This document shows, piece after piece, positions 10,049 through 16,408 of a stretch of DNA of 64,000 nt (position 1 is the first letter of the stretch; the number at the start of each line of letters is the position of its first letter). Made by a program: the position numbers and the translations under genes. The notes beneath the pieces are model-generated. The model made no database searches and was not told the origin of the DNA. It worked only from the letters and a program-made list of their open reading frames with translations. The stretch lies in the NCBI RefSeq assembly GCF_024298905.1, contig NZ_CP101154.1, positions 496,001 through 560,000 on the forward strand, in the 5' to 3' direction. Source of the stretch: Natronomonas marina (GTDB lineage: Archaea; Halobacteriota; Halobacteria; Halobacteriales; Haloarculaceae).

Positions 10049-11791
10049 ATGTTCCTGCAGTTCCGCGAGTCGGTCGCCGACGCGCTCCGGGCCACCCTCG
10101 ACGCCCGGGGGCTGCCGACCGACGACCTCGGCATCGAAGAGCCGCCCGAGGATGTCGACGCCGTGCTGGCCTCCAGCGTCGCATTCCGACTGGCCGGCGA
10201 ACTCGAGGCGCCGCCGCCGCAGGTGGCCGCCGATCTGGCCGGCGACATCGACGCCGACGCCCACGCGTACCTCGACCGCGTCGAACCGACCGGTCCCTAC
10301 CTGAACTTCTTCCCCGACGAGTCGTACTTCCGGGAGACCCTGGCGGCTGGACTGGACGACGACTACGGGCGACTGCCCGACCGTGACGTCTCCGTCGTCG
10401 TCGAGCACACCTCCGCGAACCCGACCGGGCCCGTCCACGTCGGCCGGGCGCGCAACCCGATCATCGGCGACGCCGTCGCCAACCTGCTCGATTTCGCCGG
10501 CTACGACGTCGACCGCCACTACTACGTCAACGACGCCGGCCGGCAGATCGCCGTCTTTACGTGGGCCTACGAGACCTTCGACGAGGCCGACCTCCCGGAA
10601 CCGGCCCGGGACCGCGCGGAGTACCGGATGGTCCGCTACTACCGGAAGGGCAACGAGTACCTCGAGAACGCCGACCCCGCCGAGGTCGAGGCCGCCGAAG
10701 CCGAGATTCAGGCCATCCTCCAGGGGCTGGAGGCGGGCGACGAGGCCGTCTACGAGCGCGTCGGCGAGGTCGTCGACACCGTCCTCGGCGGGATGAAGGA
10801 GTGTCTCGGCCGCCTGCCCGCCGAGTTCGACGAGTTCGTCAAGGAGACGCGGTTCATGCGCGACGGCTCGACCGACGACGTGATTGCCCGCCTGAAGGAC
10901 CACGAGCGGTCGGTCTACGAGGACGACGCCTGGCAACTCACCTTCGAGGACATCGAGAAGAACCTCGTCTTCCTGCGGGCCGACGGCACCTCGCTGTACA
11001 CCACCCGGGATCTGGCCCACCACGAGTGGAAGTTCGACAACTACGACCGCGCCGTGACGGTGCTCGGCGAGGACCACAAGCTCCAGGCCAACCAGCTCGG
11101 GGCGGCACTGGAGATGCTCGGCAACGACACCGACCGTCTGGAGAACGTCATCTACTCGTACGTCAACCTCCCGGAGGGGAAGATGTCGACCCGGGCGGGG
11201 ACGGGCGTCCAGCTGGACGACCTGCTCGACGAGGCCGTCTCGCGCGCACGCGAAGAAGTCGAGATCCGCCTCGACGACCGGCTCCGCGACGACGACCTGT
11301 CCGCCGAGGACGTCGACCGCATCGCCCGACAGGTCGGCGTCGGCGCCGTCCGCTACGACATCGTCGCAAAGCAGCCGACCAAGGGCATCACCTTCGAGTG
11401 GGATCGGGCGCTGGACTTCGAGGCGCAGTCGGCGCCCTACGTCCAGTACGTCCACGCGCGCTGCTGTGGGATCATGTCCGAGGCGGGCGACACGGAGCCG
11501 GTGGTCGACTCCTCGCTTCTGACGACCGACGCCGAACGGGACCTGCTGCGGACGGTGGCACGGCTGTCCGGCGTCGTCGAGGACGCCGCCGACGACCTCG
11601 AACCCCACCGGGTGGCGACCTACACGCGCGAACTCGGCGACCGGTTCAACGCCTTCTACCGGGAGTGTCCGGTCCTCGGGGCCGACGACCCCGAGACCAC
11701 CGCCGCGCGGCTGGCTCTCGTCGCCGCCGCCAGACACGCGATGGCCAACGCCCTCGACATCCTCGGTGTCGAGGCCCCCCGGTCGATGTAG
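10049..11791 (+). CDS. argS: Arginyl-tRNA synthetase
   Basis: Class I synthetase that charges tRNA-Arg. The 580 residues match the family: an N-terminal Add1 domain (about 1-110), the HIGH-equivalent HVGRARN near residue 129 within [19 protein letters not shown], the KMSKS-equivalent EGKMSTRAG near residue 377, and a C-terminal helical anticodon-binding (DALR) domain ending near residue 575. The start codon is the first ATG after a short AT-richer CTTTTGACC element near 10020. Confidence 0.97.
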
Positions 11792-12412: not shown

Positions 12413-13654
12413 ATGAGCGACGACGATGGGGAGCCGTCCGACAGGCAGAAATACGAGTTCACGAAGGTGCTCGAGGAACTCGACGAGTACTCGGGTTCGG
12501 GCACCCAGCTCGTCTCCATCTACATCCCCGAAGACCGGCTGATAAGCGACGTGGTCGCCCACGTCACCCAGGAGCACAGCGAGGCCTCGAACATCAAGTC
12601 CAAGCAGACCCGCACCGCCGTCCAGGACGCCCTGACCAGCATCAAGGACCGCCTGAAGTACTACGACGTCCACCCACCGGAGAACGGGATGGTCATCTTC
12701 TCGGGCGCCGTCGACTCCGGCGGCGGCCAGACCGAGATGGTCACCGAGGTGCTGGAGTCGCCGCCCGAGCCGGTCCAGTCGTTCCGCTATCACTGCGACT
12801 CGCACTTCCTGACCGAGCCGCTGGCGGAGATGATGGGCGACAAGGGGCTGTACGGCCTCGTCGTGCTGGACCGACGGGAGGCCAACGTCGGGTGGCTGAA
12901 GGGCAAACGCGTCGAGCCCGTCAAGTCGGCCTCCTCGCTCGTGCCGGGGAAACAGCGGAAGGGCGGCCAGTCCGCCCAGCGGTTCGCCCGCCTTCGCCTG
13001 GAGGCCATCGACAACTTCTACCAGGAGGTCGCCGGCATGGCCGACGACCTCTTCGTCCCGAAGCGTCACGAGATGGACGGCATCCTCGTCGGCGGCCCCT
13101 CGCCGACCAAGGACGAGTTCCTCGACGGCGACTACCTCCACCACGAACTGCAGGACATGGTGCTGGGGAAGTTCGACGTCTCCTACACCGACGAGTCCGG
13201 CCTCTACGACCTCGTCGACGCCGCACAGGACGTCCTGGCCGAGACGGAGGTGATGAAGGACAAGTCCCAGATGGAGGAGTTCTTCGAACAGCTCCACGAC
13301 GGCGGGAAGGCCACCTACGGCTTCGACGCCACCCGACAGAACCTCCAGATGGGCGCCGTCGACCGCCTGCTCATCAGCGAGGACCTCCGGAAGGACGTCG
13401 TCACCTACGACTGCGACGGCCGCGAGGAGTTCGAACTCGTCGACAGCCGCGCCGACACCCCCGACCACACCTGCGACGGCGGCGGCGAGGCAGAGGTCGT
13501 CGAACGCGAGGACGCCATCGACCACCTGATGGAGCTGGCCGACGAGCGCGGCTCCGAGGTGAAGTTCATCTCGACGGACTTCGAGAAGGGCGAACAGTTG
13601 CTCACCGCCTTCGGCGGCATCGCCGGCATCTTGCGGTACTCGACGGGCGTCTAA
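12413..13654 (+). CDS. prf1: Peptide chain release factor aRF1
   Basis: Archaeal/eukaryotic-type release factor that reads all three stop codons and triggers peptide release. The 413 residues show the NIKS stop-recognition motif at 60-63 (SNIKSKQTR), the catalytic GGQ at about 184-186 (KQRKGGQSAQRF), and a C-terminal domain ending with FGGIAGILRYSTGV. Length is normal. The start is the ATG at 12413, 25-30 bases after the TATA box; the much longer upstream in-frame extension is not protein-like. Confidence 0.97.
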   Translation: MSDDDGEPSDRQKYEFTKVLEELDEYSGSGTQLVSIYIPEDRLISDVVAHVTQEHSEASNIKSKQTRTAVQDALTSIKDRLKYYDVHPPENGMVIFSGAVDSGGGQTEMVTEVLESPPEPVQSFRYHCDSHFLTEPLAEMMGDKGLYGLVVLDRREANVGWLKGKRVEPVKSASSLVPGKQRKGGQSAQRFARLRLEAIDNFYQEVAGMADDLFVPKRHEMDGILVGGPSPTKDEFLDGDYLHHELQDMVLGKFDVSYTDESGLYDLVDAAQDVLAETEVMKDKSQMEEFFEQLHDGGKATYGFDATRQNLQMGAVDRLLISEDLRKDVVTYDCDGREEFELVDSRADTPDHTCDGGGEAEVVEREDAIDHLMELADERGSEVKFISTDFEKGEQLLTAFGGIAGILRYSTGV

Positions 13655-13818
13655 CGACTATCTGATACCCTTTGTGGGCTGGACGCGAGTCATCGGGTGC
13701 TGTTCGTCTCCATACCAGTGATCGTCGTGATTGATACAGGTCGTTTTCTACCCGCCCGAGCGGTATCAATAATTACAGAGTGGAAAACCATTTATCAATT
13801 CGCTGTATACTGTTTTGT

Positions 13819-14460
13819 ATGAATCGACGGCAGCTATTACTTGGCCTTGCGGGCGGGCTGACCGGCGTTTCGGGCTGTTTTACTGGTGGCTCGCAACGTT
13901 CATCCCCATCGCCCACCCCAACGGGAACGCAGTCGTCCCCGACCAAGACGAACACTCCGCAAGGGACGGAGTCACCAGAGCCGACGGCATCCCCCGAACC
14001 GACGCCTGCCCGGACGATGACCAACACAGCGACGTTAAAATTCGAAACGCCTGAATCGGGTGAGCCCTTCGTTATCAATCCTCCTGAGGCGTACAAAACT
14101 GTAGATATTGGGAGTCGGGAGAATGTGGAGAATCCGGGGCGACAGAAAGGAAATGCGGTGTATATTTTTCGACAACCGGAGGAAGCGGCCACGTTCGAAG
14201 TACAGATCGCCGATCTGGAAACGAACACTGTTCTGGTCCATCAGATTTATCGGGTACCAACTGATGGTTCGTTGAAATTTGATTTCCACGAAAAGTCACA
14301 CTACGCCCTCAATCTCTACGATTTCAAATACGAGTTCGGCCGGTCACTCGACAATCAAGAGGTCTTCTTCGACTGTAACGGCCGCTACCATACCTTATTC
14401 AGCCACTCTAACGGAGAATACAACTGGAATACGACAGCAACTCGCAGGGATTGTGATTAG
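13819..14460 (+). CDS. Tat lipoprotein in AT-rich island
   Basis: A 213-residue protein starting at the ATG at 13819. It has a twin-arginine signal (NRRQLLLGLAGG) and lipobox TGVSGC with lipidated Cys20, then a Ser/Pro/Thr-rich linker (about 25-70), then a compact domain that starts TATLKFETPESGEPFVINPPE and ends with a Cys pair (FFDCNG, RRDCD). AT-rich codons (ATA, TTA, ATT) set it apart from its flanks and suggest recent acquisition. TATA-like TTTATCAATTC lies 20-30 bases ahead. It ends one base before the convergent protease gene. I recognise no domain family. Confidence 0.75.
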   Translation: MNRRQLLLGLAGGLTGVSGCFTGGSQRSSPSPTPTGTQSSPTKTNTPQGTESPEPTASPEPTPARTMTNTATLKFETPESGEPFVINPPEAYKTVDIGSRENVENPGRQKGNAVYIFRQPEEAATFEVQIADLETNTVLVHQIYRVPTDGSLKFDFHEKSHYALNLYDFKYEFGRSLDNQEVFFDCNGRYHTLFSHSNGEYNWNTTATRRDCD

Positions 14461-14461
14461 A

Positions 14462-15667
14462 TTATAGGTCAGTCCACCAGATGTTATTCCGGTCTTGAAT
14501 GGAATGACCTTGGGGACCGAAGACCCTTCCACCAGCTGCGCAAGCTCCTACAGAAATACAACCGATTGCATAATTATTCCCCCCGCTGGAGACCCACATT
14601 ACTGCTCCGCTATCACCATTTGTCTCATGGTTGTTATCCCAAATACACGCGACTTGTAATTTTGTAGAATCCCTACAATAATTCGCAACTTTTTTATCTA
14701 CATCCCGGAGGTCAACGTTACCCCCAGCAACTTCGCAGCTATTTATTCCGCGAAAGGTTAAATTCAAATTATCTGACATTACTGTGTCAAGTCCAGAATC
14801 AGAAACAGTGTCCGTGATATGGACCTTGTCCGAATGGTCCGAGGGTAAAACGATCTCGGATTCTGGACTGGATGTTGCGTCTTGTTCTATATGTGTGAAA
14901 TCAAGTGCTTCATCATAGCATACACTTGTGCCGATGGAAACACTATTGTGGAAGATATCCTCTTCTACGTCGGGCGAACAAACCCGCGTATTCGTACAAC
15001 TGCCGGGCTCCCCTGAAACGTCGTGACAGGCAGTTAAACAGTGGACCGGTAAGGACCACCCAGTATCGAATGGCTTGCAGCTGCCAGCTATCGTCCTAGA
15101 TCCAAGCGTGCACTCTTCTGATAGAAACGGCCCCGCTTTTACACCACCAGGTACTGATGAATTCCCGGTCGTTTGATCATTACAGGTGCCGCTGTGGCTA
15201 CTACACCCGGTACCACTGTGTCTCGGGGAGGGGTTTCCACTGCGTTCTTCTATTTTAATCCGAACGTCGTTTTGTCGTTCTGGCAATTCGCCTCTCCGCT
15301 CGTCCTTCTCGGGACTGTTTGCATCTAAAGTTACCAACACATGGTGTTCGCCATCGTTTGCGATTCCGATACCCGATATTGCTTCCCTCCCGAAATGTTT
15401 CGAGGAGATTTTATCTCGGACCCGTTTTGCCTTTTGAGCGTGATCGTAAAACGCAGCGTCTACTTGGACTTTGTGGCGGCCGCTGACGTCAAACGATATT
15501 GTAACTTGGTCTGAGTCACTCGCCTTCACGTCTTCCGGCGTCATCGCTAAGGCTGTCGTAGTCGGAAAGCCAGCTGCAGCAGCTAGCTTTACCACCCGAC
15601 GCCGGGTTAATTTATTGGCTTTTTTCGGTTTATGGAACTCGGTTTCCGTTCCATGGACCGTAAACAA
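14462..15667 (-). CDS. Cysteine-rich Tat-exported trypsin-like protein
   Basis: A 401-residue protein with a Tat motif (LTRRRVVKLAAAAG, 20-33), a likely propeptide to about residue 140, and a C-terminal region resembling S1 peptidases: His215 in LTACHD (or His209 in PVHC), Asp256 in LDFTHI and Ser353 in NGDSGAV. The mature part has 14 cysteines, rare for haloarchaeal proteins, so disulfides are likely. The only usable start is TTG at 15667: an in-frame TAA lies upstream and no ATG or GTG precedes the Tat motif. A TATA box (TATAAATTT, minus strand, about 15697-15705) fits a near-leaderless transcript. Activity is inferred from motifs only. Confidence 0.65.
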   Translation of the reverse strand: MFTVHGTETEFHKPKKANKLTRRRVVKLAAAAGFPTTTALAMTPEDVKASDSDQVTISFDVSGRHKVQVDAAFYDHAQKAKRVRDKISSKHFGREAISGIGIANDGEHHVLVTLDANSPEKDERRGELPERQNDVRIKIEERSGNPSPRHSGTGCSSHSGTCNDQTTGNSSVPGGVKAGPFLSEECTLGSRTIAGSCKPFDTGWSLPVHCLTACHDVSGEPGSCTNTRVCSPDVEEDIFHNSVSIGTSVCYDEALDFTHIEQDATSSPESEIVLPSDHSDKVHITDTVSDSGLDTVMSDNLNLTFRGINSCEVAGGNVDLRDVDKKVANYCRDSTKLQVACIWDNNHETNGDSGAVMWVSSGGNNYAIGCISVGACAAGGRVFGPQGHSIQDRNNIWWTDL

Positions 15668-15763
15668 AACGTAAGTATTTAATAGTTATTGAGTTAAATT
15701 TATATGTTTGTCCAGGACACTGCTCAGCGCTAACTGCCGTTTCGTTTGGGAGCATTTGAACTA

Positions 15764-15910
15764 GTGCTACGGCTGTCCCGAGTCGAGACCCTTTTAGTCG
15801 AGTTCGACGGCGACCTCGACGTCGACGAGTCGGTACGGGCCGAACTGCACGCCCTCACGCCGGCTGACTACACCGGGCTCGGCGCCGAGCTGGTCGAGGA
15901 ACTGGACTGA
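15764..15910 (+). pseudogene. C-terminal gene remnant, possibly adenylosuccinate lyase
   Basis: In-frame with the TGA at 15908-15910, about 45 residues have normal acidic haloarchaeal composition and end LTPADYTGLGAELVEELD. An in-frame TAA at 15731 closes it upstream, so only the tail of a gene is left. The pattern Pro-x2-Tyr-x-Gly-x2-x-Glu-Leu-Val resembles the C-terminus of archaeal PurB proteins, but this is from memory and weak. The remnant is GC-rich like the chromosome, unlike the AT-rich genes on its left. Confidence 0.4.
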
Positions 15911-15919
15911 GGACGGCGC

Positions 15920-15939
15920 CCGGAACGTTATTATTCCGG
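15920..15939 (+). terminator. Inverted repeat after gene remnant
   Basis: CCGGAA and TTCCGG flank an 8-base AT-rich loop just 10 bases after the remnant's stop codon. It may be the old gene's transcription end signal. Confidence 0.35.
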
Positions 15940-15964
15940 CTCGGGAACGTCAGCCAGTAAGCTA

Positions 15965-15984
15965 CCACGGCCTTCAGGCCGTGG
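15965..15984. repeat. IS200/IS605-like end hairpin
   Basis: A perfect hairpin, stem CCACGGCC / GGCCGTGG with loop TTCA. Subterminal hairpins of this sort mark the ends of IS200/IS605 (IS1341-type, TnpB-bearing) elements and their MITE derivatives, which are common in haloarchaea. No tnpA or tnpB gene is present nearby, so this would be a solo end or decayed element. Confidence 0.45.
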
Positions 15985-15994
15985 CATTTCCGCC

Positions 15995-16363
15995 ATGATG
16001 GTGCTGACTGCCGAGGAATCGCCGTGTGGAGGGACGATGATTGAATATCTAGTGTACACGGAAGCTTACAACGGGAATCTTGTATGGGACGGCACCTCGT
16101 ATCGTGTCTGTAACGAGGGAATCCCACCGAAAGGAGACGTACAGCCGGTGACGCCAACCGAGACACCTGAACCGACGGTGACACCGGCGGCTACAAACTC
16201 ACCAACTATCTCCCCAACACGAAATCGCACTCGAACAGCCGCATCATCGGTGTCGGACTCCGATGATGATTGGGGTCCGCCGCTAATGTCACCCCAGCGC
16301 GTATCCTCCACGCTATCGGTTCATTCGCACACGCCTGCTTACGGGACGGGCAACGAAACGTAG
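15995..16363 (+). pseudogene. Pro/Thr-rich open frame, probable gene fragment
   Basis: An open frame of up to 122 residues; a later ATG at 16037 would give about 108. It reads EYLVYTEAYNGNLVWDG, then SYRVCNEG, then a Thr/Pro repeat (TPTETPEPTVTPAAT) like the linkers of haloarchaeal secreted or S-layer-type proteins, and ends without a membrane anchor. The absence of a signal peptide and the position next to an IS-like hairpin suggest a broken secreted-protein gene. It could also be a chance frame. Confidence 0.3.
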
Positions 16364-16408
16364 ATGAACGCATTCCCGGACGGGATTCATGCCACCCTCG
16401 GCTGACAC

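Follow-up and report, generated by a model that had tools for sequence, protein, structure and literature searches.

A divergent, cysteine-rich representative of an unannotated family of probable trypsin-fold serine proteases in haloarchaea

The minus strand of a 64,000-nucleotide stretch of the Natronomonas marina genome, here called the window, carries an open reading frame (ORF) with an unusual start, a Tat-like signal and motifs of trypsin-type proteases. A first-pass annotation had left two readings of this cysteine-rich protein side by side, a new disulfide-stabilised protease family or a degraded one, and the locus raises the question of which kind of protein it encodes and whether the gene is intact. 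We consider it very probable that the locus encodes an S1-type serine protease (trypsin fold, PA clan), as a divergent representative of a haloarchaeal family that lacks annotation, and this is the best explanation of the evidence described below (Table 1). The ORF is a real coding frame, since the chance probability of a ~390-codon open stretch at a GC content of 0.488 (0.676 for the window) is arithmetically near 1e-8 and the ORF scores 129 bits with a hidden Markov model (HMM) of 34 relatives from which the query was excluded. A profile that includes the query recovers the ORF at E 1.3e-103, and a genome search found one copy only of the gene in its own genome.

Table 1. Features of the protease locus, with positions counted from the first letter of the window
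Feature	Position	Strand	Basis
ORF of trypsin-like protease	14462..15667	-	401 codons and a stop; TTG as nominal start
TATA-box-like element TATTAAATA	15676..15684	-	Sequence
ATG, probable original start (MERKPSSINRK...)	15652..15654	-	Neighbouring frame; 25 nt below TATA-box centre
A6 run, one-base length difference between ATG frame and protease frame	15620..15625	-	Sequence and frame comparison
Tat-like signal TRRRVVKLAAAAGFPTTTALA, residues 21-41	15545..15607	-	Twin Arg conserved across the family; export predicted
N-terminal beta-alpha-beta-beta-alpha-beta domain, ~residues 66-142, probable propeptide	15242..15472	-	Models
S1-type protease domain, ~residues 172-401	14465..15154	-	Profile matches and Foldseek of family model
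His215 (LTACHD), proposed catalytic base	15023..15025	-	Invariant 19/19 and 16/16
Asp256 (LDFTH), proposed catalytic acid	14900..14902	-	Invariant 19/19 and 16/16
GDSG 351-354 with Ser353, proposed nucleophile	14606..14617	-	Invariant; aligns with NARROW LEAF 1 GDSG

The motifs noted at the outset (LTACHD, PVHC, LDFTH and NGDSGAV) are all found in the ORF. In an alignment of 19 sequences, His215, Asp256 and GDSG 351-354 are invariant, as are Gly246, Cys331 and Gly384, and the triad columns are again invariant in a second set (n = 16); outside the catalytic positions and GDSG, the query is only 18-28% identical to its relatives in the 19-sequence alignment. The catalytic residues follow the order His, Asp, Ser with GDSG at the nucleophile in all 19 sequences, which is the arrangement expected of S1 proteases of the PA clan. 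Either His215 or His209 had been put forward as the catalytic His; the former is invariant in the family, whereas His209 (PVHC) is not conserved, sits at an insertion in the query and was rejected. In the relatives, the His lies within ATCQHIF, ATAGHIF or FATANHVF, the Asp within EDFAM or DDIAL and the Ser within GDSGS. By their sequence, these are ordinary trypsin-fold motifs, and the contexts in the query read as atypical versions of them.

The fold is indicated by the family rather than by the query alone. As a single sequence, the query matches nothing in Pfam, in NCBIfam above cut-off or among PDB sequences, whereas a profile of the family (A2, which includes the query) finds rice NARROW LEAF 1 (NAL1; 7y77) at E 1.2e-5, the His, Asp and GDSG motifs lining up in the same order, and, at a weaker E of 0.0035, alpha-lytic protease and streptogrisin B; the anticipated profile match to S1 peptidases was thus obtained for the family and not for the query by itself. 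The AlphaFold model of the query, based on 16 sequences, an alignment depth limited by the exclusion of loci obtained through the genome search alone, has an unusably low pLDDT of 42, and that of a Halorussus relative a pLDDT of 51, with the first barrel half at 65-85 and the second half, which bears the Ser, below 50. When the partial Halorussus model was compared with the PDB using Foldseek, the top 20 matches were all NAL1 (best E 4.7e-5, prob 1.00, TM only ~0.27), a serine proteinase of S. fradiae ranked next, and TFPA and SGPB followed. Together, the invariant His215, Asp256 and GDSG and the profile and structural matches to NAL1 point to a divergent S1-type serine protease, and the trypsin-like character first proposed for the protein is upheld by the invariant triad columns and by the match of the family profile to S1-fold proteases. 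These results make a trypsin fold likely for the family and putative for the query itself. The low-confidence query model and the Halorussus model also have in common the order of elements in the N-terminal domain, and part of the Halorussus model weakly matches the alpha-lytic pro region (Foldseek E 0.58, prob 0.84). By position and element order this domain is propeptide-like and probably acts as a propeptide; the earlier impression of a propeptide-like N-terminus is compatible with these models, although the structural evidence is weak.

The family appears to be widespread in one archaeal class. A profile of 13 rows (A3, query included) identified members in 170 of the 391 sampled Halobacteria genomes and in 62 of 86 genera; the underlying alignment was too diverse to serve as a seed for pattern scans. 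Matches outside Halobacteria were few, weak and mostly limited to the protease domain. The single-sequence query matched only seven of the 145 other genomes of its taxonomic family and then more across the class, and a single-sequence scan of genome contigs found no relatives. None of the 26 relatives scanned against Pfam and none of the ten scanned against NCBIfam reaches a cut-off; for the Pfam models Trypsin (PF00089) and Trypsin_2 (PF13365) the query has no match, and the best relatives score 15-16 bits against cut-offs of 20.6 and 27.6. In the plasmid records that were checked, relatives are entered as 'hypothetical protein' (two with a second label) or correspond to no listed gene. Because of this wide distribution, the lack of Pfam and NCBIfam matches and the 'hypothetical protein' labels, the family is to be regarded as common yet unnamed in the libraries checked (Pfam, NCBIfam), and no paper describing it was found among open-licence papers. 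The proposal of a new family is therefore borne out as a lead, in that no Pfam or NCBIfam model recognises the members: what is new is the family in annotation, within which the Cys-rich branch is unusual, whereas the fold and the chemistry are already known. In the phylogeny, the query falls into a clade, supported at 98/98, with homologues from the genomes G390 and G284 and from the same-genus genome G117; its own branch is very long, at 2.15 changes per column. Elsewhere, in genome G050, two members lie near each other on a single contig (L077:7432-8514 and 10705-11604), the second with an internal TAG.

The 14 cysteines of the query (residues 155, 162, 186, 197, 210, 214, 224, 230, 250, 311, 331, 341, 370 and 376) amount to 3.5% of its 401 amino acids, against a mean of 0.8% in 170 neighbouring haloarchaeal ORFs, one of which reaches 3.5%. 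Among 34 family members, the number per protein ranges from 2 to 10 with a mean of 5, and the count that was initially singled out as unusual is indeed exceptional with respect to both the neighbouring ORFs and its own family. Of 19 sequences, all have Cys331 and 12 have Cys311, and in several relatives a Cys two residues before the catalytic His co-occurs with one three residues before the Asp; the remaining cysteines are mostly private to the query. Judging from the sequence, the extra cysteines in the query lineage probably form private disulfides. Disulfide stabilisation as a hallmark of the family, as suggested by the first-pass annotation, is not supported, because most members carry only 2-8 cysteines and the richness is private to the query.

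The RRR motif is kept across the family in both alignments. With the NCBIfam model TAT_signal_seq, the query scores 8.4 bits against a cut-off of 16.7, and one relative, at 16.1, falls just under it; on the strength of the conserved motif, the family proteins are predicted to be exported via Tat. We hypothesize that the protein is made with its Tat signal and then exported in a folded state, that the small N-terminal domain functions as a propeptide or folding chaperone, which may be cleaved later or kept, and that the two-barrel domain cleaves extracellular or envelope proteins using the His215-Asp256-Ser353 triad, while the extra cysteines of this lineage would be engaged in private disulfides. 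The broader proposal that this is an unnamed exported trypsin-fold family with a Tat signal and a propeptide-like domain, consisting of archaeal cousins of plant NAL1 and representing a common haloarchaeal extracellular protease beside the halolysins, with private disulfides in the query lineage, has in our estimate an even chance of being correct.

The start of the gene requires separate consideration. It had been reported to have no ATG or GTG start, which is true of the protease frame but not of the next frame, opened by an ATG at 15654-15652. The TTG lies only ~12-14 nt below the centre of the TATA-like box. Haloarchaeal transcripts start at a set usual distance below the TATA box, and since the TTG falls short of this distance it would sit above the transcript start. 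The sequence KPSSIH occurs in two relatives (L012 and L014) in the same region as the MERKPSSINRK of the ATG frame, and in four (L006, L007, L011 and L012) the distance from I (or V) to (S/T/N)RRR is eight residues, as in the joined reading of the query. The query-free HMM assigns 134.7 bits to the joined ATG reading, 128.8 to the TTG reading and 126.0 to the protein without its N-terminus, placing the ATG-frame peptide ~6 bits above the TTG-frame N-terminus, a modest gap. Because the KPSSI motif and the TATA spacing add to this modest difference, a frame break of one base shortly after the start, in the A6 run, is most likely the correct reading, with the ATG at 15654 as the putative original start. 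The TTG start is then probably an artefact that most likely reflects a difference of one base in the A6 run, due either to a sequencing error or to a recent mutation.

The gene is located in a low-GC islet (13500-16400; GC 0.45-0.59 against 0.68 for the window) that was probably acquired and that also holds a gene for a Tat-type lipoprotein (MNRRQLLLGLAGGLTGVSGC; 13819-14460, plus strand) convergent with the protease gene. Full-length close relatives of the lipoprotein were found only in two genomes of the same genus (G125 and G126), once beside a protease remnant, in G126. An operon partner was rejected: no neighbour is widely shared across the loci of 21 relatives, and G126 is the only same-genus genome in which the lipoprotein gene adjoins a remnant of the protease. 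At 15791-15911 (plus strand) there is a copy of ~100 bp from the 3' end of a gene identified by its sequence as purB, coding for adenylosuccinate lyase; it shares 89% identity with the end of the resident purB gene (G000:C1, 3667.7 kb) and is possibly the trace of an integration event next to the protease gene. An anti-phage role was rejected (no PADLOC match), as was a phage origin, with no PHROGs match for the query and no relative in viral contigs or phage records; one relative has a weak PHROGs 'protease' match (E 0.0076). Within the genus, a frameshift in the N-domain divides the homologue in G117 (L003/L010) in two and that in G126 (L004) is reduced to a 3' remnant, and gene loss in the genus is therefore plausible.

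The query copy itself may be a young pseudogene, that is, a member of the same protease family silenced by its frameshifted start, to which we assign somewhat less than an even chance. The offset of one base between the ATG and protease frames at the A6 run, the position of the TTG above the predicted transcript start, the broken homologues in G117 and G126 and the low-GC islet are all in line with such a fate. However, ~390 codons are still open with a full triad, and any break must therefore be recent; moreover, a miscounted homopolymer in the assembled sequence would explain the break equally well. The initial idea of a degraded protein is thus retained in part, as the start seems frameshifted and the same-genus relatives are broken, but the triad is intact. 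The break falls exactly within a homopolymer run, 10 codons past the ATG, as would be expected if the length of the run were a functional switch, with transcription slippage or phase variation joining the two frames; yet six A residues make a short run and an assembly error is simpler, and we regard a switch as decidedly improbable.

A different objection concerns catalysis. The atypical contexts TACHD and LDFTH, the long branch and the many private cysteines beside the catalytic His could be those of a catalytically dead, disulfide-stabilised S1 homologue with a binding or scaffold function, but all three catalytic positions and GDSG have been retained despite the low identity elsewhere, and a dead homologue is unlikely. 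It is hardly credible that the protein is not a trypsin-fold protease and its motifs are coincidental: single-sequence searches gave no match and the models are weak, but the triad columns are invariant family-wide and S1 proteases are matched by both the profile and Foldseek. Membership of the S1-type family is hence preferred, although the lack of a match for the query alone, its low pLDDT, the poorly modelled, Ser-bearing second barrel of the Halorussus relative and the long branch count against it.

Among known systems, NAL1 (7y77, 8pmg and 8has) is the best match in both profile and structure, with the three catalytic motifs aligned in order. NAL1 is a longer, intracellular trypsin-like serine protease of plants, whereas the haloarchaeal proteins have ~400 amino acids and a Tat-like signal. 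Because the Tat-like RRR motif is conserved, while NAL1-like proteases are defined as having no export signal, the sequences identify the haloarchaeal family as a relative, and not a member, of the NAL1-like proteases. With S1 proteases of the alpha-lytic/streptogrisin type, the family shares a likely trypsin-fold domain (profile E 0.0035) and a probable exported pre-pro layout, and the alpha-lytic pro region bears a weak structural likeness to the haloarchaeal N-domain. However, this similarity is remote, the length of the N-domain and the Cys pattern differ, and the haloarchaeal signal is Tat-like, whereas alpha-lytic/streptogrisin-type proteases have a Sec signal.

Secreted proteolysis in haloarchaea is known mainly from the subtilisin-like halolysins. 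A trypsin-fold family with members in about two fifths of the Halobacteria genomes sampled would stand beside them as a second class of proteases that are probably exported. Such a family would offer salt-tolerant enzymes for testing and provide examples of plant NAL1 relatives that carry an export signal, and its Cys-rich branch would test the use of disulfides outside the haloarchaeal cell. Halolysins such as SptA are haloarchaeal extracellular subtilisins of the S8 type (PMC3158780, PMC6085418), and the C-terminal extension of SptA has two cysteines (PMC3158780). The present family would have in common with them that its members are exported haloarchaeal serine proteases, but the query has no match to the Peptidase_S8 (subtilisin) profile, and the two groups differ in their fold and in the order of their motifs.
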